Source: Desulfopila aestuarii DSM 18488 (GTDB taxonomy: Bacteria; Desulfobacterota; Desulfobulbia; Desulfobulbales; Desulfocapsaceae). Taken from it: DNA of 64,000 nucleotides. Every line of letters begins with the position of its first letter. Within the stretch, counting starts at the first letter, position 1. Shown piece after piece: positions 50,203 through 64,000 of the stretch. Under the pieces are notes generated by a model that did no database searches, had not been told where the DNA came from, and saw nothing but the letters and a program-made list of their open reading frames with translations. A program made the position numbers and the translations under genes. Location of the stretch: assembly GCA_945863875.1 (NCBI GenBank), contig CAMBBS010000012.1:1-64000 (forward strand), in the 5' to 3' direction.

Positions 50203-51078
50203 ATGAACGTGATACTCACCTACCGCAAAAGGGTTATAACCCAAGACGACATCTCCTTCATCGGCAAGGTCATCGAAGAGCTGTGGAGCGAAGGTCGTAC
50301 CACCATTTCACGCAGGCTTTGCGAAGTCTGGGACTGGCGCCAGACCAACGGCTACCTCAAGGATGGCGTCTGCCGCGGGCTGTTGCTCCGACTCGAACAA
50401 GACCAGCATATCACCTTGCCGCCACGGCTGAGTACCAACAATAACTCAGGTATCAGGAAAAATAGCCAGGCAATTTTTGATTTCAGCCCAGCGCCGATCA
50501 CTGGTGCCTTGCGCAGCCTTGCTCCCATCTCACTGCGGCAGGTCCGCAGGACGCCCGAGGAAAAACTGTTCAATACCCTCATTCGTCAATACCACTACCT
50601 GGGTTATACCCAGCCGGTCGGCGAACATCTCAAATATCTGATCTATGCCGGTGACAGGTTACTGGCCTGCTTCACCTTTTCCTCGGCACCATACGCCATC
50701 GACTGCCGCGACACCTTTCTCGGCTGGTCGCCGGAAGCCAGAGAGCGTAACCGCCACCTGCTCGCCTACAATTCACGATTCCTAATTTTACCATGGGTTA
50801 CGGTCCCGCACCTGGCTTCCCATCTGCTTGGTCGCATAGCAAAGTCCATCTCCGAAGATTGGCAAAGGCTCTACCACCATCCGATCCTCTGGCTGGAGAC
50901 CTTTGTCGATACTGAAAGATTTGCCGGCACCTGTTATCGGGCCGCTAATTGGACCTTTCTTGGGTTGACCTCGGGTCGCGGCAAATACAACAAGACCAAA
51001 AAACAACTGACCTCCATCAAAGCCATGTACGGCTACCCCTTGTCCCGCGATTACAACCAGAGGCTCTGTCATGGATAG
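50203..51078 (+). CDS. DruA-like DUF4338 protein in IS66-like element
   Basis: This 291-aa protein contains DUF4338, the domain of DruA from the Druantia antiphage system, here with FNTLIRQYHYLGYTQPVGEH, IDCRDTFLGWSPEARERNRH and LETFVDTERFAGTCYRAANW. Genes druB to druE are absent, so this is not a Druantia system. It overlaps the transposase start by 8 bases inside the inverted repeats, so it probably helps transposition. No enzymatic role is proven. Confidence 0.85.
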   Translation: MNVILTYRKRVITQDDISFIGKVIEELWSEGRTTISRRLCEVWDWRQTNGYLKDGVCRGLLLRLEQDQHITLPPRLSTNNNSGIRKNSQAIFDFSPAPITGALRSLAPISLRQVRRTPEEKLFNTLIRQYHYLGYTQPVGEHLKYLIYAGDRLLACFTFSSAPYAIDCRDTFLGWSPEARERNRHLLAYNSRFLILPWVTVPHLASHLLGRIAKSISEDWQRLYHHPILWLETFVDTERFAGTCYRAANWTFLGLTSGRGKYNKTKKQLTSIKAMYGYPLSRDYNQRLCHG

Positions 51079-52504
51079 ACAGGAAGCCGAACGAATCTAC
51101 GAGGCCGGCCGGGAGACAGTGATTGCAGCCCTGCTGACGATGGATGCCCGCATCAAGGAAATGGAGCAGGTCATTGCCCGATTGACCAGAAACTCATCCA
51201 ACTCTTCCCGTCCGCCATCCTCCGACCCACCCGGCCTGAAAAAAAAGCCCAAAACCAGCAAAAAGCCGGGTAAACGCCGTCAGGGCGGCCAACCGGGCCA
51301 TAAAGGCAAGAAACGGCAATTGCTGCCCGCCGAGGAGATGGATGCCATCCACGATATTTTCCCGCTCAACTGCGAGCACTGCCGGCAACCGCTTTCGCAA
51401 GGCTTGCTTGACCCTGCGCGACAACCCTTGCGACATCAGGTCATTGAACTGCCCCCGATCATCCCCGTCAAAACAGAGTATCGCCTGCACTCCCTGCTCT
51501 GTCCCTGCGGCCGCCATACCATTGCCCCTTTGCCCGAAGGGGTGCCCGACTCCAACTTCGGCCCTGGCGTCCACGCCGCCATCGCCTATCTGACGGCGGT
51601 GCATCGAGTCAGCCGCCGGGGCATTGCCGAAATCATGACAACGCTCTTCGGCATCGAGATCTCAACCGGCGCCGTCTGCAAGGCTACCGAGCGTGTTTCC
51701 ACTGCCTGCGGGCCGGTGGTTAGCGCGATCAAGCACTATGTGGCCTCCGCCACGGTACTCAATATCGACGAAACCGGCTGGAAAAACAAGGGCGACAGAT
51801 GCTACCTCTGGTGCTTTGTCGCACCGCTTGCCGTTCTTTTTCATATCTCGGAGAGCCGTGGGGCCAAGGTCCTGCGGAAAATACTGGGCGAGACCTTTGC
51901 CGGGATCATCGGCAGCGACGATCATTCGGCCTACAACTGCTACCACAAAAACAGACGCCGCCAACTCTGCTGGGCTCATCTGATCCGTAAGCTGAAAGCC
52001 CTGCGAGACGATCGATCCAGCCCGCACGCCTACTGTTTTGCCAAAAAAATGCTCCAAGAGGTGGGAGCCATCTTCTCCTGTTGGCATGCCTTTCAAAGAT
52101 CAGGCGGTTCCAGGGAGCAGTTGTGGCTGGATACCGCGCCCATGCGCGAGCGCATGCGGGAGTATTGCGAGATCTTTCTCTACAGCACCGATCCCCTGGT
52201 AATAACCAGGGCCAAGCGCACTCTGGCCAACTGGGAGAACCTCTTTACCTTCCTCATATATGAGGGCGTCGAGCCCACCAATGACATTGCCGAACGTGCC
52301 ATCCGGCCGTCAGTGCAGTGGCGCAAAATTTGCTTTGGCTCTCAGTCCGACACTGGTCTGCGCTTTACCGAGCGGATGTTGTCCATTGTCGGCACCTGCC
52401 GTATGCACGGCGTCAATCCGTACCATTTTCTGACCAAGGTCATCAACGCCTCATTCTCCGGCAAAGACTCCCTGCCGGACCTGTCCCGCCTGCTCCAGAA
52501 ATAA
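51071..52504 (+). CDS. IS66 family transposase
   Basis: The 477-aa transposase has an N-terminal helix (about residues 20-45), a Ser/Pro-Lys linker, a zinc motif (CEHCRQPL and LCPCGRH), and a DDE catalytic domain with aspartates in NIDETGWKNKG and GIIGSDDHSAYN and the glutamate in TNDIAERAIRPSVQW. All parts needed for activity are visible. It is coupled to the DUF4338 gene. Confidence 0.95.
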   Translation: MDRQEAERIYEAGRETVIAALLTMDARIKEMEQVIARLTRNSSNSSRPPSSDPPGLKKKPKTSKKPGKRRQGGQPGHKGKKRQLLPAEEMDAIHDIFPLNCEHCRQPLSQGLLDPARQPLRHQVIELPPIIPVKTEYRLHSLLCPCGRHTIAPLPEGVPDSNFGPGVHAAIAYLTAVHRVSRRGIAEIMTTLFGIEISTGAVCKATERVSTACGPVVSAIKHYVASATVLNIDETGWKNKGDRCYLWCFVAPLAVLFHISESRGAKVLRKILGETFAGIIGSDDHSAYNCYHKNRRRQLCWAHLIRKLKALRDDRSSPHAYCFAKKMLQEVGAIFSCWHAFQRSGGSREQLWLDTAPMRERMREYCEIFLYSTDPLVITRAKRTLANWENLFTFLIYEGVEPTNDIAERAIRPSVQWRKICFGSQSDTGLRFTERMLSIVGTCRMHGVNPYHFLTKVINASFSGKDSLPDLSRLLQK

Positions 52505-52744: not shown

Positions 52745-53431
52745 TTATTTTTTCTTTCTTCTAGTTAATCCTGCGAGGCCAATTAAACCCGTACCAAAAA
52801 GGAGCATGGTGGCAGGTTCTGGCACAGGATTTAATACTACGTTGTCAATGAAACCACCAACGGTGTCAGCATCAGCGGCAAAATCAGACAGAGATCCGAA
52901 AGATTGAAACCAGATATTGTGATCACCTGCTGTTGCGACACTAAAAATCGAGGAATATTGAACCCATGAGTTACTAAATAAAGTATAGCCTAGTGTTGTG
53001 TCGTCATACCCATACCTGATACCGTTGGTTCCATTAGCGTCATTGGTCCGTGGGATGTAATAAAAACTTAATTCATAGGAACCAACGCTAAGATTTACAA
53101 GCTGCCCCATCTTAGTATCACCAGGAGTTGGGTGTGAGTCAAGTTCAACATACTGGTCACCAAAAGTTGTGGAAATCCCACTCACAGTACCATTCTCCTG
53201 AATTTCAATACCTTGCCCACTGTTTGTTGTCCATCCTCCGTCAATTTGGGTAAAAACTGTCCAACTGCTTCCACCGTCACCGCCAGGGCTAATAGTGTTG
53301 TTGGCAGCTGTCTCATCTCCACCAATATCGGGAGTTTCAAAGCTACCGTTATGAATAAGATTTGCTTCAGCAGTGTTAATTACAGCAATAACTAAAAAGA
53401 AAACGAATAGGCTGGTGAGAATATTTTTCAA
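52745..53431 (-). CDS. PEP-CTERM sorting domain protein 1
   Basis: This 228-aa exported protein has a signal peptide (residues 1-23) and the C-terminal sorting signal PEPATMLLFGTGLIGLAGL followed by TRRKKK. Exosortase (EpsH) cuts such signals and delivers proteins to the surface or biofilm matrix; none is encoded in this window. The middle is a beta-rich, carbohydrate-binding-like domain (ANLIHNGSFETPDIGGDETA). A sigma-54 promoter lies about 100 bases upstream. Confidence 0.9.
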   Translation of the reverse strand: MKNILTSLFVFFLVIAVINTAEANLIHNGSFETPDIGGDETAANNTISPGGDGGSSWTVFTQIDGGWTTNSGQGIEIQENGTVSGISTTFGDQYVELDSHPTPGDTKMGQLVNLSVGSYELSFYYIPRTNDANGTNGIRYGYDDTTLGYTLFSNSWVQYSSIFSVATAGDHNIWFQSFGSLSDFAADADTVGGFIDNVVLNPVPEPATMLLFGTGLIGLAGLTRRKKK

Positions 53432-53965: not shown

Positions 53966-54658
53966 TTAGCTGAAAATAAAAAAGGCAGAGCCATTTCTGC
54001 CCCTGCCTTTATCTTTCAGATATAAGGAATTATATTTTTTCTTTCTTCTAGCAAACCCAACGAGACCAACTAAACCAGTACCGAAAAGAAGCATAGTCGC
54101 TGGCTCGGGAACAGGATTTACTTGTTCAAGATTAATATTATCGAGTAGCATGCCGATATTGTCACCACCTATACCTTCAAAGCTCAGAGATATACTTGTT
54201 GCATTAGCAAGGGAGAATGATGCTGTGTAAGTCATAAAATTATCATGCCGTCCGAGTGAATAATCATTTGAAAATAAACTTCCCCCGCTTACTTGAACAC
54301 TCACAGTCTCGGTCGCGTTATTTCTGTGATTACCGGCTAGGTCAAAGCTGAGAAGATAATCTCCAGCTGCTAAATTCAATGATTGGGTGTTAAACATTTT
54401 TCCTGCATTGCTTGTGGAGCCATCCATATCAACAAATAGTCCATAGCTTGCATCTTGGTCAAGTTGAAAATATCCATTCCCAATGAGATCAACTGTACCA
54501 TCAACCACACTCCAATTTGAAAAATTATTATAATTTAGTACGCCAATGCCACCATTTTCAGTATTAAAATTATCACTAAAAATCGTTATAGCGCTTGCTG
54601 TTCCGACCAGCCCAAACATAACTGCCCATATTGCCAAACCTGCTAAATATTTTTTCAT
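53966..54658 (-). CDS. PEP-CTERM sorting domain protein 2, stop codon lost
   Basis: This 230-aa exported protein has a signal peptide (residues 1-23), a beta-rich middle, and the sorting signal PEPATMLLFGTGLVGLVGF followed by ARRKKK. At the place where gene 1 has its TAA stop, this gene has TAT (forward 54032-54034). It therefore runs 22 codons further, through its own terminator hairpin, adding YNSLYLKDKGRGRNGSAFFI and two more residues after the basic end. Gene 1 and this gene share their sorting signal almost exactly, while the middles differ. Confidence 0.85.
   Translation of the reverse strand: MKKYLAGLAIWAVMFGLVGTASAITIFSDNFNTENGGIGVLNYNNFSNWSVVDGTVDLIGNGYFQLDQDASYGLFVDMDGSTSNAGKMFNTQSLNLAAGDYLLSFDLAGNHRNNATETVSVQVSGGSLFSNDYSLGRHDNFMTYTASFSLANATSISLSFEGIGGDNIGMLLDNINLEQVNPVPEPATMLLFGTGLVGLVGFARRKKKYNSLYLKDKGRGRNGSAFFIFS
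53977..54008 (-). terminator. Terminator of PEP-CTERM gene 2, inside the reading frame
   Basis: On the minus strand AAGGCAGGGGCAG folds back to CTCTGCCTTTTTT. It overlaps the last codons of the extended gene, because the normal stop codon is lost. Confidence 0.75.
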
Positions 54659-56974: not shown

Positions 56975-57901
56975 TTACCGACCCAGCACACTGCAGATCA
57001 CTCGGTTACGGCCACTCTGCTTGGCCTGGTACAGGTTCTGATCAGTCGTCTCCAGAAAGGTCTGCGGCGATATCTTGCCATCCATGTCGATGGTTGCAAG
57101 GCCGATACTGATGGAAATCCGGTTGGCGGCCTGAGAGAATTCGTGGGGAATATTCAGATCGATAACTGCCTGACGGGTTCGGTTGGCAATGATCCCGCCC
57201 GCGGCGGCATCCGTTTCCGGCAGCACCATGACAAATTCCTCCCCGCCGTACCGGGCGATAAGATCTCCCGGTCGCCTGAGGATACTGTTCAGGGCCTTGG
57301 CGATTTTCTGCAGGGTCAAATCGCCTTTGGCGTGGCCGTAATGATCGTTGTATTGCTTGAAAAAATCGACGTCGATCATGGCCAGGGAAAAAGGCGTCCT
57401 GTTTCGAGCCGACCGCGCCCATTCCTTTTGAAAGACCTCCTCAAAGCGGCGTCGATTGGAGATTTCCGTCAGCCCATCCAGATAGGCCAGTTGATCGAGC
57501 AGTTTGTACTGATGGACAATGCGCAGGTGATTTCGGACCCGCATCTTGACGATCGGGGGAGAGAAGGGCTTGATAATATAATCGACTGCGCCAAGCATGA
57601 AGCCGTGCTCTTCATCCTCAATCGAGTTCAGGGCAGTAACAAAAATAACCGGAATGTTGTTGGTCTTGTCATTATGTTTGAGAATTCTAATAACCTCATA
57701 GCCGCCCATGTGCGGCATCATCACATCAAGTAAGATAAGATCCGGTGGAAAGTCACTAAAAGCGTGCTTGAGCGCCTGCTCGCCACTGCCGGCAAGTACT
57801 GGCGTATACTCCTCTTTGAGCAGATCAGCCAGCACCTTCAAATTCATTATTTCATCATCAACGATCAGAATACGTGGGTTTTTATTCTCGTGCATAATCA
57901 C
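56975..57901 (-). CDS. Response regulator with diguanylate cyclase domain
   Basis: The protein is 308 aa, cytoplasmic. The receiver domain (1-120) has the acidic cluster at about D15-D16 (ILIVDDE) and phospho-acceptor D59 ([13 protein letters not shown]); the GGDEF domain (about 140-305) has an intact active site GGEEF (219-223) and inhibitory RPGD (210-213) five residues before it. It should make c-di-GMP when phosphorylated, with feedback inhibition. It overlaps the hybrid kinase by 4 bases and is likely its output. Confidence 0.95.
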
Positions 57902-60744
57902 ATCTCACGCTGCTGCAGGAACTTGTCCAGCAGGGTCTCGGTCATCTCTGCTGCACGGTCATATTCTATGTCATTTATCAAGTTCGCCAAAGTCTGCAGA
58001 GCGTCTTGTAAATCGGCCCCGGCAAGCTGCCGTTTCACTTTGACGAACTGTTCTTCGGCGGCGATCTCGCCTTTTTTCAGGTGGCCGATGAGCTGTCGCA
58101 TATCCTCCTCAAGGGCAATTGCCCCGGCGGCTTTCCCCTGCATGAGCTGGGTGTGCGCCGGTCTTTTTTCCGTTACGGCCGGAAGTGTCGCCAGGGCGGC
58201 GAGGATATTGTTGAGCGTAGCGATAAAGAAATCGAGATGGCGCTGCGCCTCTTCCCGCCGGTCATTTTTCAGGGTAGCTTCCAGTTTTTGAGCCGCCTGC
58301 ATGAGTGCCGTCGAACCGATATAGCCTGAAACGCCTTTTATGGCATGGGCTTTATCCTGGATCTCCTGCCACTGACCGGCGACAGCCAGGCCGCGCAGGA
58401 TGTCCGGCAGGTTGGTGTACTGTTTTTTGAAATCATGGAACATTTTCACCAAAAGATTTTTATTATTATTCAACGCCTTAAGCGCTTCCACCTGATTTAT
58501 TCCAGGTAGAAAAGGAAGTGAAAGAGCATCTGGCGACGGGACTTCGGCGGCCTTGCCGGCAAGATACGGTGGTGTTGCCGACTGCTTTTCCGGTATCCAG
58601 GCTTTTAAGGTTTGATACAGTTCAGCCTGATCGATAGGTTTGGTGATATGTTCATTCATCCCCGCGGCAAGACTCTTCTCCCGGTCTCCGGCCATGGCGT
58701 GGGCGGTCATGGCGATTATCGGCAGGTCCTGCAATTGGCCGTTCCGCCGAATACGTCTGGTTGCCTCCAGGCCATCCATCTCCGGCATCTGGATATCCAT
58801 CAGCACCAGGTCATAGCTTGCCTGCTGCAGAGCCGCCAGACATTCCCGGCCGTTTGAGACCACCGTTACCAGCATACCCGCTTCCTCCAGGAAGGCGGTC
58901 GCTACTTCCTGATTGATGCTGTTGTCCTCGACGAGGAGGATCCGAGCACCCTGGAATTTCCGTAGATCTGCCGTCCGTCGCTTCTTGGTAACCGCCAGGG
59001 GGTGCGCAATAGATTTAATACCGAGAATATCCAAGAGGGTCTCATACATGACTGAAGCATAGACCGGTTTGACCAGGAAGGCGTTCAACCCTGCCTTGTC
59101 GGCTTCGAGATACGCTTCCTCGCGTCCATTGGCGGTGACCATTAACATTGCCGGCACCTTGGCAAAAGCAGCGTTGGCCTTAATCCTCCTCGCCGTCTCA
59201 ATGCCATCGATGCCGGGCATGATCCAGTCAAGCAAAACAACATCGTACGGTTTTTGCCGCGCTGCTGCCTGCGCCAGCAGAGTCAGTGCCGCTTGCCCAT
59301 CGACAGCCGTGTCCACCTTGATTTTCAACGAGGCCAGCATTGAGGAGAGCACCTCCCGGGCCGCCTCGTTATCGTCGACGACGAGGGCGCGCAGTCCCTG
59401 GGGCAGTTCCGTGGGCTGCCTCGCCTTCCGGTCTATATTGCCGGAAATTTGCAACCGGGCGGTGAAAATGAACTCCGTGCCTTCTCCCGGGAAACTGTCC
59501 GCCCGGATCTCTCCGCCCATCAACTCCGTCAGCTGTTGGCAAATGGCCAGTCCGAGACCTGTGCCGCCGTATTTTCGGGTAATGGAATCGTCGGCCTGAC
59601 TGAAGGCGGAAAAGAGGTTGCCGAGCTGTTCCTGCTGCAGGCCAATACCGCTGTCGCGTACGGAGAAGCGCAGGGAAAGTTCGTCGTCAAAAAGCTCGTC
59701 CAGGCTTACTGAAATAACAATTTCACCCTTCTCGGTAAATTTAACCGCATTGCCGGCCAGGTTCATCAGTACCTGGCCGAGCCGCAGGGGATCCCCCCTG
59801 AGGGTATTGGGCACCTGGGGATCTATTTGAAAGATGAATTCCAGGCCCTTTTTTTCCGCCTGCATGCCGACAACATTGGCTATATTGCCGAGGATATCTT
59901 CAAGATTAAAAGGAACTTTTTCCAATTGCAGCTTGCCGGCGTCGATCTTCGAAAAATCGAGAATATCGTTGATCAGGGCCAGCAGCGTGTTGGCGGAAGA
60001 GAGCAGTTTTGCCGTATAATTATGCTGCCTTGGCTCAAGGGCTGTCTTTTGCAGCAGGGAGGCCATGCCGATAATGCCGTTCATCGGCGTGCGGATTTCA
60101 TGACTCATGCGCGCGAGAAAATCACCTTTCGAGGCATTGGCCGATTCGGCAAGGTCCTTGGCCTGGATGAGCTCAAGTTTCATCTGCTTCTGCAGGGTCA
60201 TGTCCATCGCCGTGAAAAGGTAGCCGGCAATGCGGCCGTCGGGGTTGTACAGGCTGGTGATCGACAAACTTACCGGCAGGTGCGTGCCATCTTTACAGAC
60301 GTAAAACCATTCCTGGGCGCGGCTGTGTTTCTGTTTGACAAATTGATCAAAAACCTTCATGTGATGCAGCTCCGAGCCAGCAGCTCCGCTCACCTCTCCG
60401 ACCTTTTTACCGTAATGCACCAGTTCGTCGGCCAGATGCAGGGAAAGAATACTGCACTTGCTGATCATTTCCGCCGGCTTGTAGCCAAGAAGAGTCGCTG
60501 CCCCCTTGCTGAAAAGCTGGATGGTGCCGGACAGATCGGTGGCGATGATCGACAGCTGGGTCGCGGCATCTAAAACAGCCTGCCGTTCCGCATCGGCAGT
60601 CTGGAACCGGTGCAGCATGCTTTCCGTTTGTTCAAACTGTTTGACGACGAAATCGGCGGTAATCTCTGCAGCCTCCCGGGCGACTTTCAGTTCGCCGCGC
60701 AGCATGTCGATTTCCAGCTGCATGTCATCTCTGCTTTTATGCAT
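57898..60744 (-). CDS. Soluble PAS hybrid histidine kinase with REC-REC-Hpt, 948 aa
   Basis: Domain order: N-terminal coiled coil (1-55), PAS (about 55-190), HisKA with phospho-acceptor H215 ([19 protein letters not shown]), HATPase ([16 protein letters not shown] and [10 protein letters not shown]), two receivers ([12 protein letters not shown] and [12 protein letters not shown]) and a C-terminal Hpt domain ([13 protein letters not shown]). No membrane span is seen, so it senses an internal signal or protein. It is in one operon with hydrogenase genes and a diguanylate cyclase, with 1-base and 4-base overlaps at its ends, suggesting H2 or hydrogenase state as the signal. Confidence 0.95.
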
Positions 60745-61190
60745 TATCCGGTGTCCTTCAAACCGTGCGTTGCAATGTCAAGGCTCAACCGGGCAGCCCG
60801 TTTGATCGATTTTTCGGTACATAGACCCTCAAGGCCGACAAGGACAATCTCCTCCGGCAGTTCTCCGTCACAGACCCTGGGCAGCACGGCCAGGAGATAG
60901 GCCAGGCCTGCGCCATGATCAAAATGGCCGGCATCGTCGGTGGGCACGCCATCCCGGCAATCGAGCAGGATGATTTCGCCCGGTTGGCCAAAGCCCTTGA
61001 CCGAATCGACGAAAACCACTCTGCCGCCCTGTTCCAAGAGCGGCAGCAGGTTCAGGCCGGCCACCCCCCCCTCGATGAGTTCTATTTGTGGAGGCAGCGG
61101 CTGTATTTTCTCTAATTCGGCAAACACCGCAAGTCCGGCAATATCTTCCTGGACAAAGCGATTGCCGATGCAGATGATACACCCTTTCAC
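60744..61190 (-). CDS. [NiFe] hydrogenase maturation endopeptidase
   Basis: This HybD/HoxM-type protease, 148 aa, cuts the C-terminal tail of the hydrogenase large subunit after nickel insertion. The family start IGNRFVQEDIAG, the central VFVDSVKGFG and HFDHGAGLAYLLAVL fit. It overlaps the large-subunit gene by 4 bases, so it most likely serves that enzyme. Confidence 0.88.
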   Translation of the reverse strand: MKGCIICIGNRFVQEDIAGLAVFAELEKIQPLPPQIELIEGGVAGLNLLPLLEQGGRVVFVDSVKGFGQPGEIILLDCRDGVPTDDAGHFDHGAGLAYLLAVLPRVCDGELPEEIVLVGLEGLCTEKSIKRAARLSLDIATHGLKDTG

Positions 61191-62737
61191 GGTGCGCAGC
61201 CCAGGGAGAGCAAGCCCTTTTTCTCACCTTTCTGCAGGGTGTGGACTGCACAGACCAGGCAGGGATCAAAGGACCGGACAACGTGTCCCGCTTCCACCGG
61301 ATTTGACACATCTTTAATCGGGGTGCCGATCAGCGCCTCCTCCCATGGACCACGACCCCCCTGTGCATCGCGCGGACTGCCGTTCCATGCCGTCGGGGTA
61401 ATCACCTGATAATGGGCAATCTTTCCATCCTCAACCTTCACCCAATGGCCTAAAGCGCCGCGGGCTGCCCCGATCATGCCTGCACTTTCCCCGTCCGGGA
61501 TGGTTGTTGCCGTGCGATAAAAACTGTCTGTGTGTCTCGCCAGAAGCTCTGCCAGCAATGTTGCCATCGGCTTGAGGAGATGGGCCGGACGTGCCAGGCG
61601 GGCCAGTTCCCGGGCCAGGACATTGGCGCCGTCTCCTGCTATCATGCCCTGAAAAAGCGGGTTGCCGGCAATAATCATTTCCGCCAGAGGTCCGGTTTCC
61701 GCGGCTTCCCCCGCGTAACGGGGCGCCTTGACCCAGGAATAGGACCGGCCGCTCTGGCCTGCGGCATGGGGCCTCGTCACCCCGACGGATGGATGGAGCG
61801 GGCCGGCCGCCTGCTCGTACCAGGCATGCGAGATATCTTCAGATATTTTTGTCGGCAGAAAGGGAAAAACCGCTGTGCCGACGGCAAAGCCCGCACCCAG
61901 GAGTCTGCCGTCGATATCCGTCAGGCTGGTTTCTGCGGGAAGGGTAAAGTTGCCGTAGGAGAGGAAACGGCCGGAACCCCTGCCGAGCCGGTCAAGCCCG
62001 GCCAGACGGGCAAAACGGAGAAAAAAACCGATCTCGCTTTGGCGATGCGTGGGGCTTTCGTCAAGCCAGTTGTTCAGATCATCCATACAGCGTATTTCCA
62101 GCCACCTGTCAATGGAACAGCCGAGAACGATACGTTCATACCAGGAACAGAATCGTTCATAGATAATTCTGCACTGGAGAATTTTGGAAATTTCCGGAAT
62201 GGAGGTCACTCCTCCGGGGACCATGAACGAGGTATGGGGCCATTGCCCACCAATGATGGCGACTATCTGTAACAGCCGTTTGGTTTCGCGAATGGCTTCG
62301 ATTGCCGCGCTGCCCTGCAGGGGATTATATCGCTGCCGCGCCTCGGTACCGAGTTGATGGTCCTGATAGGCCTCCTTGTTGGCGAAGTCGACCATAAACA
62401 TCAACAGTGCCTGGCGCACATCGCTCTGGATAATTTCGACCATCAGTGCCAGATTGCGCAGACGGTAGGCGTTATCGGGCGGCGTCACCCCGGCGATTGC
62501 GTCGAGTGCCTCAACCGCCGCGGTGAGATGGGTCAGGCTGCAGATGCCGCAGATGCGCGGGGTGATGACCAGGCCATCGAGCGCTCCACGCCCGCGCATC
62601 ATGTTTTCGAAACCACGGAACAGGGTACCGGAACTCCAGGCCTCGATGATGATACCGTCTTCAACCTCAACCCGGATTTCAAGATCTCCTTCGGCTCTGT
62701 TCAGTGGAATATTGATTCCTTTTAATATGTTAACCAT
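61187..62737 (-). CDS. [NiFe] hydrogenase large subunit
   Basis: This 516-aa catalytic subunit binds the NiFe(CN)2CO centre. Both cysteine pairs are intact: RICGICSLTH near residue 62 and DPCLVCAVH near residue 492. The tail after that histidine (TLQKGEKKGLLSLGCAP) would be removed by the protease encoded next, which regulatory sensor hydrogenases of the HupV/HoxC kind lack. The N-terminus (AEGDLEIRVEVEDGIIIEA) is normal. It lies 25 bases past the small-subunit gene. Confidence 0.95.
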   Translation of the reverse strand: MVNILKGINIPLNRAEGDLEIRVEVEDGIIIEAWSSGTLFRGFENMMRGRGALDGLVITPRICGICSLTHLTAAVEALDAIAGVTPPDNAYRLRNLALMVEIIQSDVRQALLMFMVDFANKEAYQDHQLGTEARQRYNPLQGSAAIEAIRETKRLLQIVAIIGGQWPHTSFMVPGGVTSIPEISKILQCRIIYERFCSWYERIVLGCSIDRWLEIRCMDDLNNWLDESPTHRQSEIGFFLRFARLAGLDRLGRGSGRFLSYGNFTLPAETSLTDIDGRLLGAGFAVGTAVFPFLPTKISEDISHAWYEQAAGPLHPSVGVTRPHAAGQSGRSYSWVKAPRYAGEAAETGPLAEMIIAGNPLFQGMIAGDGANVLARELARLARPAHLLKPMATLLAELLARHTDSFYRTATTIPDGESAGMIGAARGALGHWVKVEDGKIAHYQVITPTAWNGSPRDAQGGRGPWEEALIGTPIKDVSNPVEAGHVVRSFDPCLVCAVHTLQKGEKKGLLSLGCAP

Positions 62738-62761
62738 TCAGGTTCTGTCCTTTTGTCGGGG

Positions 62762-63697
62762 TTAAACCTTTGATTTGCGGTTCTTCAGATGTTCCGGCGC
62801 TGCGGCGGCAGCCATTCCCTTATAGACCATATAATGCGCGCGATTGACTCCCATGGGTAGGGAAAGGGGGATGCCTTCGATATTCGGGGTTTTGAAAAAC
62901 GGCGTGGCCCGGGGAAAATCCGGATCGGTGCAGCCAAAACATGGCACTCCCGCCCTGGGTTTTGAGGAATGCTGGTTCCACAGCAACTTATTGCAGGGGC
63001 CCGGCACCAGGGGGCCGGCACAGCCCATGTGAAAAAAGAGGCAGCCCATCTCGCCAAAGTCGGATTCCTCGACCCGATATTCGTGGTATTCGTTGCGCGT
63101 GCACCCTTGATGCACCGTCGTGCCATACCATTCAAGAGGACGCTGGTATTTATCCAGCTCAAGAATCACCCCGTTGGCGACGGAGATGATTGCCCCGGCA
63201 ATGACATCATGATGGCAGGGGCAGCCGGCGAGATTAATGACCGGCCGACCGGATCGGGAGGTGAAATCTTCTCCGAGAAAACCGCCCCGTTCTTTTTTGA
63301 TAAACTGCAGTCCCGTGGCCTCGATGGCGTCATTGGAGCCAAAGCCGCCGAACGAGGCACAGGTGCCTACCGCTATGACCACCTCGGCCTTTGCCGCCAG
63401 GCTGAAAATGAGCTCTTTTTGCGGCCGGCCGCCTTTTGTATGGAACATCCCGGTACCGGCCGGTCCACAGATTACCGCTCCCTCGACCAGGAGGATATCC
63501 AGAGCTTGTTCCCCGGTAAGGATTGTTCCGAGAAGTCGACTGTGGTTGTCGGGAGAAAGGTTGGACAGCGAGGGGTGCCAGAGCAGCTGGATGTCCAGGG
63601 TACGAAACAGCTCGACGACATTTGGATATTCACTGCTTAAAAAAGAAAATGTATCTCCGCCGCATCCGCCGCCTTGATGCCAATAGGCTGTCTTCAA
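62762..63697 (-). CDS. [NiFe] hydrogenase small subunit with unusual proximal site
   Basis: This electron-transfer subunit should carry three Fe-S clusters. The proximal motif reads YWHQGGGCGGDTFSFL: the second cysteine of the normal CxxC is Asp. The other proximal cysteines are in GTCASFGG and AGCPCHHD, and the medial/distal set (VHQGCTRNEY, MGCLFFHMGCAG, GPCNK, PCFGCTDPDFP) is present. Cys3Asp proximal clusters are known from the actinobacterial-type hydrogenase of Ralstonia eutropha. There is no Tat signal. I chose a TTG start at 63697 (311 aa), with GGAGGG ahead; the ATG at 63739 would add 14 unlikely residues. Confidence 0.88.
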   Translation of the reverse strand: MKTAYWHQGGGCGGDTFSFLSSEYPNVVELFRTLDIQLLWHPSLSNLSPDNHSRLLGTILTGEQALDILLVEGAVICGPAGTGMFHTKGGRPQKELIFSLAAKAEVVIAVGTCASFGGFGSNDAIEATGLQFIKKERGGFLGEDFTSRSGRPVINLAGCPCHHDVIAGAIISVANGVILELDKYQRPLEWYGTTVHQGCTRNEYHEYRVEESDFGEMGCLFFHMGCAGPLVPGPCNKLLWNQHSSKPRAGVPCFGCTDPDFPRATPFFKTPNIEGIPLSLPMGVNRAHYMVYKGMAAAAAPEHLKNRKSKV

Positions 63698-63827
63698 AAT
63701 ATATCCCTCCGTATGAACGTGCATCCAGCAATGCATCAACCCTGTGTTCCTCTTGCTGTAGGCAAGAGACCGCGCACGGGCGCATGCCCCTTGGTGGGGC
63801 TTAAGGTAGTATCACGGATACAACTTC

Positions 63828-64000
63828 TTATGTCAACTTCCGGGGAGCCTTTTTTATCTTCAAAACGAAGGGAATACCGAGAAAACCGACAACGGCACAG
63901 AGGGTGTAGGTTTTTTCAAGGCCGATCTGGTCGGCGACAAAGCCGACCAGGACGACGACTGCCGATCGGGCGAGAAAGCTTATCATCATGAAGACGCCGT
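63828..64000 (-). CDS. C-terminal end of a transporter, probably MFS (partial)
   Basis: The last 57 codons, read from the window edge, give a hydrophobic span with a charged loop (ARSAVVVLVGFVADQIGLEK) and a second span before a basic end (KIKKAPRKLT). This fits the last two spans of a major-facilitator transporter. The rest lies outside the window. It is upstream of the hydrogenase operon on the same strand. Confidence 0.6.
   Translation of the reverse strand, partial: GVFMMISFLARSAVVVLVGFVADQIGLEKTYTLCAVVGFLGIPFVLKIKKAPRKLT

Follow-up and report, generated by a model that had tools for sequence, protein, structure and literature searches.

A five-gene hydrogenase and signalling operon

The window analysed here, a stretch of 64,000 nucleotides (nt) comprising bases 1-64000 of contig 12 in the genome of Desulfopila aestuarii DSM 18488 (4.69 Mb in 93 contigs), carries on its minus strand a run of five genes in which the two subunits of a [NiFe] hydrogenase and a maturation protease are followed by a hybrid histidine kinase and a predicted diguanylate cyclase. 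The element that stays constant among the related loci is a helix at the N-terminus of the signalling protein, here called the adapter helix, and not the cyclase or the PAS domain. The genes and the features within them are as follows (aa, amino acids; ORF, open reading frame).

62762..63697, minus strand: hydrogenase small subunit, 311 aa from a TTG at 63697 (mechanical ORF start 63739), without a twin-arginine translocation (Tat) motif
63653..63655, minus strand: Asp codon in the CGGD motif, where HoxB/HupU have the fourth proximal-cluster Cys
61187..62737, minus strand: hydrogenase large subunit, 516 aa, with L1 motif RICGICSLTH and L2 motif SFDPCLVCAVH
61190..61240, minus strand: C-terminal tail (17 aa) that follows the L2 His of the large subunit, predicted to be cleavable
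60744..61190, minus strand: maturation protease of the HycI/HyaD type, 148 aa
57898..60744, minus strand: hybrid kinase, 948 aa, adapter helix followed by PAS-HisKA-HATPase-REC-REC-Hpt
60601..60729, minus strand: adapter helix, kinase aa 6-48, no Pfam family found, proposed hydrogenase-docking module
56975..57901, minus strand: predicted REC-GGDEF diguanylate cyclase, 308 aa, GTG start
57263..57274, minus strand: I-site RxxD (R210, D213) of the cyclase, preceding GGEEF

A sequence-only reading of this DNA had described five coupled minus-strand genes, and both the coordinates and the Pfam domains agree with it. The gaps and overlaps measure 1-24 nt, with a gap of 24 nt between the small and large subunits and overlaps of 4 nt (large subunit and protease), 1 nt (protease and kinase) and 4 nt (kinase and cyclase). 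Pfam places NiFe_hyd_SSU_C and Oxidored_q6 in the small subunit, NiFeSe_Hases in the large subunit, HycI in the protease, PAS-HisKA-HATPase_c-REC-REC-Hpt in the kinase and REC-GGDEF in the cyclase. The end coordinate 63697 given by that reading coincides with the TTG that is most likely the start of the small subunit, because most orthologues have a start codon at this residue; the protein thus defined begins near its proximal-cluster motif, and no RRxFL (Tat) motif was found in its first 60 residues. None of the five proteins has an obvious membrane span, the best 19-residue Kyte-Doolittle means being 1.80 (small subunit) and 1.74 (the kinase, for which the absence of a span had been claimed). 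Within the conserved five-gene run there is no gene for a cytochrome, quinone or NAD partner, and none of the five genes encodes a DNA-binding regulator. Elsewhere the genome encodes two HypD proteins, 19 GGDEF and 19 PilZ matches above the cut-off and five EAL matches, and therefore has both the maturation and the cyclic di-GMP (c-di-GMP) machinery.

The conservation of the operon was assessed on a set of loci made up of 31 large-subunit matches in 27 of 93 genomes of the family, the best 80 named loci of a capped list and four plasmid loci; the loci were represented by mechanical ORFs, the profiles were built from the window's own domains, and the duplicate contigs L075, L100 and L107 were removed before counting. 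A quick maximum-likelihood tree of 83 rows, which carries a warning of a long-branch join between HoxC/HupV and HoxG, places the window in a clade of 22 rows (SH-aLRT 100); 30 rows of group 2a/2d type stand outside the tree, their class having been assigned by identity and neighbourhood. A search of relatives for the gene order had been proposed as a check, and the order hydrogenase, hybrid kinase, REC-GGDEF is kept in 18 of the 22 clade loci, or 18 of the 19 in which the kinase can be read to its end (in L078, counted among the 18, the kinase is split over two ORFs, while in L046, L054 and L079 the contig stops inside it). The sole readable departure, L059:10309-11709, is by its sequence an output swap within the clade: the adapter sits on a short, non-hybrid kinase of 466 aa without REC, and the contig ends 240 nt later. 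Two later loci show the same order, L191 and, with a kinase devoid of PAS, L184. The arrangement is conserved and functionally coherent, and not a product of chance.

The clade is nested in a signalling superclade of 69 rows (SH-aLRT 98) with more varied outputs. A kinase without a visible GGDEF gene follows the hydrogenase in 34 rows, some of them cut by contig ends, and a bare GGDEF protein in five rows that form one clade (100). PAS-GGDEF occurs in L102 (Magnetococcales) and PAS-GGDEF-EAL in L108 (Methylococcaceae), L109 (Burkholderiaceae) and L169 (a plasmid of Ideonella dechloratans); four rows were scored 'none' for output by the domain scan. A kinase or GGDEF gene was scored directly downstream in 0 of 41 group 2a/2d-type loci; upstream, several of these have a sigma-54 regulator and L126 has REC and kinase genes.

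The signalling proteins appear fit for a phosphorelay. In the kinase, PAS (aa 54-183), HisKA (205-270), HATPase (317-432), two REC domains (449-574 and 602-713) and Hpt (783-851) are accompanied by intact phosphorelay residues (His215, Asp506, Asp650 and His800). Across the clade no kinase departs at the HisKA His, the N-box Asn or the G1/G2 residues (21/21), both REC acceptors are kept in 20 of 20 rows with a letter there, and the Hpt His in 18 of 18. The claim of an intact diguanylate cyclase with its inhibitory site is borne out at the level of residues: GG(D/E)EF (here GGEEF), metal-binding Asp and I-site are all present, and the REC acceptor Asp, GGEEF and RxxD are invariant in all 18 clade cyclases, so that cyclase activity is predicted.

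By its sequence the hydrogenase is a cytoplasmic, sensor-type [NiFe] enzyme with a small subunit of the three-cluster type and complete L1 and L2 nickel motifs. At the fourth proximal-cluster position it has Asp, which recurs in 59 of the 60 superclade small subunits compared (the other has Glu; the counts cover 60 of the 69 rows), as against Asn in 11 of 11 group 2a/2d-type and Cys in 2 of 2 group 2b sequences. Nine other Cys/His columns show one departure across the 60, and CGGD is also found in the phylum loci with a readable motif. Ligation of the proximal cluster by Asp has a precedent in HofK, a hydrogenase of the actinobacterial type, and Huc has [3Fe-4S] clusters.

The cleavable tail of the large subunit, to which the sequence-only reading had drawn attention, is real, and members of the window's clade typically combine such a 17-aa tail with a protease gene in the operon, but the feature depends on lineage: four Desulfamplus loci of the clade (L077, L079, L081 and L082) end at the L2 His, HoxC-like, and have no adjoining protease gene, and L101, outside the clade, likewise has neither. 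Among the 69 superclade loci, tails of at least 10 aa have a protease gene beside them in 30 cases and none in 18, tails of 1-9 aa have one in seven and none in nine, and the five tail-less loci never have one. A rule that a tail requires a neighbouring protease fails on these counts; the protease for such tails may be encoded elsewhere, and protease genes are present in L048 and L055. Because tail and neighbouring protease vary by lineage in clade and superclade alike, the tail looks like a matter of assembly and not a part of the signalling.

The N-terminal adapter helix

One module of about 44 residues stands at the N-terminus of these signalling proteins, whatever domain follows, with a consensus approximating ENxLLxxEIxVAREAAxITAxLVVxQFxxTExxL. 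It precedes PAS-HisKA in the window, HisKA directly in clade B and in L076 of the window's clade, GAF-HisKA in L095, PAS-PAS-GGDEF in L102 and GGDEF directly in clade C. A profile of 44 positions, trained on copies beside hydrogenases, detects the module in all 64 superclade loci that do not belong to clade D, including L086, L088 and L150, where the domain scan had returned 'none', each time on a single ORF that follows the large subunit on the same strand; it is found in 0 of 48 other loci (41 of group 2a/2d type, two of group 2b and five of clade D). The adapter ORF is the first signalling gene after the large subunit, with usually nothing or just the protease gene between them, and its farthest start lies 1.33 kb away (L078). 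Across 61 aligned adapters Glu15 and Gln33 never vary; 60 of them keep Arg20, Thr26 and Val30, and 59 keep Ala22.

The pairing with hydrogenases holds at the scale of genomes. In the 93 family genomes, 31 adapters pair one to one with the 31 large-subunit genes, 33-607 nt apart and in the same 27 genomes, and none lies away from a hydrogenase at E 0.001 (15 of the 31 places belong to the training set of the profile). Among 395 genomes of the phylum there are 12 adapter places, the window's among them, spread over 11 genomes, and each has a hydrogenase large-subunit gene upstream of it; ten lie outside the training set and two inside (the window and G170). The large subunit itself was found at E 1e-60 in 13 of the 395 genomes, with three candidates scored per genome; two of the 13, G096 and G272 (43% and 41% identity), are without the helix, and their kinases carry a HoxJ-like segment. 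One of the 12 places, L192:4709-5468 (G443:C24), is a decayed sensor operon in which an adapter ORF and a PAS-PAS-HisKA frame come after a truncated large subunit.

No match to the window's adapter was found in Pfam, nor to the adapter profile in the PDB. AlphaFold models a single helix over aa 5-62 of the window's kinase that runs into the PAS fold (mean pLDDT 85.9), and over aa 16-73 before the GGDEF domain of a clade C bare cyclase, L072 (mean pLDDT 79.8). Mean adapter identity is 39.1% between clades A (the window's own) and B, 39.0% between A and C and 40.3% between B and C, values of about 39-40% found both where the catalytic ends match (A-B) and where they differ (A-C). Among adapter groups the last 50 or so residues of the small subunit show higher identity than the core (65.1 versus 54.7% for A-B, 64.3 versus 53.4% for A-C), and lower identity than the core against groups without the adapter (43.3 versus 48.4% for clade D, 33.8 versus 45.0% for 2a/2d, 30.4 versus 40.9% for 2b), which suggests that the helix may meet this C-terminal segment.

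The helix was also compared with the segment that precedes PAS in HoxJ. Homology between the two was rejected, the adapter profile scoring no better than E 0.02 in nine N-termini of HoxJ type or from clade D; the HoxJ segment alone, when iterated, reaches HupT, L110, L194 and L195, and not L108, L109, L114 or L169. A Rieske domain was considered as a common input of clade D and discarded, being seen in L108 and not in L109, L110, L114 or L169. In L108 itself (L108:3771-6032, the PAS-GGDEF-EAL protein of a member of the Methylococcaceae) the Rieske [2Fe-2S] domain lies at the N-terminus (aa 41-86, E 4.8e-7) and is possibly an electron wire from the hydrogenase.

How hydrogen may be linked to c-di-GMP

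We consider it probable that the operon encodes a hydrogen (H2)-sensing unit, in which the hydrogenase signals via the N-terminal helix of the kinase and a phosphorelay to c-di-GMP. The hydrogenase would bind the kinase by the amphipathic helix, possibly through the C-terminal 50 or so residues of its small subunit. Oxidation of H2 at the Ni-Fe site would shift the redox state or conformation of a cluster or of the active site, and with it the packing of the helix, a change that would pass into the PAS-HisKA dimer; phosphate would then travel from His215 via Asp and His800 to Asp59 in the REC domain of the cyclase, and the c-di-GMP level would change within a cap set by the I-site. In relatives the same helix would be joined to other kinases, or straight to GGDEF. 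The steps beyond the intact parts of a conserved operon we infer from sequence. The sequence-only reading had likewise arrived at H2-responsive c-di-GMP signalling; its parts stand, in that a sensor-type hydrogenase, a soluble kinase and an intact cyclase are conserved together, but c-di-GMP turns out to be one output of several.

A wider proposal seems, on balance, likely: a large sensory [NiFe] clade, marked by CxGD, would share an adapter helix that has moved among hybrid, simple and GAF kinases and bare cyclases, so that the hydrogenase serves as an H2 input module to which different outputs can be fitted, and the bare adapter-GGDEF proteins are controlled directly, with no phosphorelay.

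Several observations weigh against these proposals. GGDEF is seen among the genes examined in 28 of 64 adapter loci and not in 36, some of the latter since contigs end; likewise, of the 11 phylum loci besides the window, REC-GGDEF was seen downstream in two (L184 and L191), again partly owing to contig ends. Clade D and two other loci combine similar hydrogenases (with CGGD in L194) with helix-less kinases or PAS-GGDEF-EAL proteins. The adapter is less conserved between clades A and B (39.1%) than the kinase core (49.4%), and its conserved and hydrophobic faces coincide, as they would in an ordinary dimer coiled coil. As to the contact on the hydrogenase, the rise in C-terminal identity is modest, an equal one occurs within the two 2b sequences (75.6 to 85.7%), and the contrast groups comprise few clades, so that few independent events lie behind the pattern.

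The strongest competing explanation, though an unlikely one in our view, is that the hydrogenase docks on the PAS domain in the manner of HoxJ, the N-terminal helix being an inherited dimerisation coiled coil of the kinase. It would fit with the amphipathic helix and its single conserved face, and with the place of PAS before HisKA in HoxJ and HupT; moreover the window's PAS is recognisably common to other hydrogenase-linked kinases and to the PAS-GGDEF protein of L102 (about 82-119 bits), and Foldseek places the kinase model near PAS folds that sense redox state or gases, FixL and NifL being examples, among others. However, clade B kinases, clade C cyclases and the L076 kinase have no PAS by profile, yet all carry the helix at the equivalent place in the operon, and Pfam also finds no PAS in L069 and L072. 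The sequence-only reading had suggested that the PAS domain of this kinase could dock the hydrogenase. PAS as a universal dock is discarded, PAS-less kinases and bare GGDEF proteins occupying the same place; and because such partners sit there while the helix is present in 64 of 64 loci, PAS is unlikely to be essential for docking.

We give little credence to an uptake or energy-conserving hydrogenase whose neighbours merely regulate its synthesis, with no signal driven by the hydrogenase. The respiratory enzyme Huc (7utd) is the closest solved relative and the large subunit keeps tail and protease, but the five-gene run offers neither an electron-transfer partner (cytochrome, quinone or NAD) nor a DNA-binding regulator, and the adapter occurs in 0 of 41 group 2a/2d-type loci. 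Equally improbable is a general redox sensor that reads the cytoplasmic redox state backwards through the clusters and not H2 itself: the residue at the proximal position does differ between the superclade, with Asp, and the 2a/2d and 2b groups, with Asn and Cys respectively, and PAS resembles redox PAS folds among others, but the L1 and L2 motifs and the window's dedicated protease are kept, features for which a pure redox sensor would have no use.

If a helix-coupled sensor of H2 is correct, the label 'diguanylate cyclase-linked' for group 2c would be too narrow, and the helix would provide a simple sequence test for sensory hydrogenases that are otherwise annotated as uptake enzymes. A helix kept across outputs would be a precise handle on the hydrogenase-kinase contact, and the bare adapter-GGDEF proteins would amount to a two-part switch from H2 to c-di-GMP that could be rebuilt in E. 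coli.

Genomic surroundings and known hydrogen sensors

Upstream of the operon, on the same strand and beyond the window, lies an MFS transporter gene; the upstream gene in relatives varies in strand and size. One promoter-like match falls between this gene and the operon:

63808..63836, minus strand: match to a sigma-70-like promoter, TTGACA-17-GATACT, in the interval that separates the small subunit from the MFS gene

The match agrees at 10 of 12 positions, with one found against 0.3 expected by shuffling, and is a lead only. A sigma-54 promoter upstream of the small-subunit gene was discarded, as two patterns of the TGG/TGC type gave one match (L055) within at most 300 bases in 20 loci. Within the window no RNA families were found except one tRNA. 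Two PEP-CTERM surface proteins are encoded near the operon (52745-53431 and 53966-54658, minus strand), a sorting system often tied to extracellular matrix, and a DruA-family gene overlaps an IS66 transposase gene (50203-52504, plus strand), the pair looking like one mobile element. Elsewhere in the same genome, L011:10063-11439 (G000:C13) encodes another [NiFe] large subunit with an in-frame TGA at the expected L2 Cys (DP-TGA-MSCATH) and an open frame after it, likely a selenocysteine hydrogenase.

Other loci have noteworthy neighbours of their own. In a second sensor clade of the family (histidine kinase-REC, no GGDEF) two unrelated fructose-1,6-bisphosphatases are encoded ahead of the hydrogenase genes (L069:2620-5457; FBPase_2 and GlpX by Pfam), look-alikes of the two occupying the same place in L061 and L068, and this neighbourhood suggests a possible metabolic link. 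A kinase-like gene of about 990 aa precedes the sensor operons of L103 (5913-8906, an MMPL-histidine kinase fusion), L187, L190, L098 and L089; in the last four a second [NiFe] large subunit with a protease lies further upstream, possibly a target of control. A group 2a-type locus on a Bradyrhizobium plasmid (L170:1-1746) has an EAL-domain gene about 2 kb upstream on the opposite strand, probably unrelated to the hydrogenase.

Sensing of H2 has been studied mainly in one type, HoxBC/HupUV. In the group 2b system HoxBC-HoxJ-HoxA (pHG1, L167), as in the window, a cytoplasmic hydrogenase stands beside a soluble PAS kinase, and a conserved segment precedes PAS; the segment of HoxJ is unrelated in sequence to the adapter. 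HoxJ lacks REC and Hpt by Pfam whereas the window's kinase has REC-REC-Hpt, and a sigma-54 regulator gene of the HoxA type adjoins the group 2b sensor where the window has REC-GGDEF downstream and the MFS gene upstream. HoxB has four proximal residues of Cys type, the window Asp at the fourth. HoxC is described as lacking a C-terminal tail (PMC10073562), in line with the tail-less large subunits of L167 and L168 and in contrast to the 17-aa tail here; according to another source, Gln replaces a conserved active-site His in group 2b (PMC5665086), a substitution that we place in L1, where HoxC/HupV have CGICSVSQ and the window CGICSLTH. Of hydrogenase and kinase it is stated that they 'interact presumably' (PMC6978683), and the literature searched, outside which most subscription journals lie so that absence from print is not established, holds no mention of a hydrogenase adapter helix.

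Two further systems are instructive. Huc, of group 2a, is the nearest solved structure (E 1.3e-113 for the large and 6.7e-82 for the small subunit); against the CGGD of the window, the proximal motif of group 2a is CxGN, and the group 2a/2d-type loci compared have Asn at this position (11 of 11), no adapter and no signalling gene directly downstream (0 of 41). With cyclases of the PleD/DgcR type the window's cyclase shares the REC-GGDEF order and intact A- and I-sites. PleD has two REC domains; the cyclase here has one and is encoded within a hydrogenase operon.

The closest parallel is HydDB group 2c, in which a group 2 hydrogenase is encoded with a diguanylate cyclase, as in the window, and a signal from H2 to c-di-GMP is predicted; HydDB lists it as 'Diguanylate cyclase-linked (putative)' and adds 'May sense H2 and regulate processes through cyclic di-GMP production' (PMC5037454). 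In the same literature, most subscription journals again lying outside it, no experimental test of group 2c was found. The L2 consensus quoted for 2c, SFDxCLVCTVH (PMC4853749), is matched exactly by several superclade relatives (e.g. L084, L091, L097 and L102) and differs from the window's motif by one residue. Where L108 and L169 have PAS-GGDEF-EAL proteins in which the adapter was not found, the window has the adapter and a multistep phosphorelay of hybrid kinase and REC-GGDEF, and by sequence it looks like a phosphorelay variant of this group. Signalling from H2 to c-di-GMP is thus already in print as a putative class; the new elements are its phosphorelay variant, CxGD as a marker, and an adapter helix that different outputs have in common.

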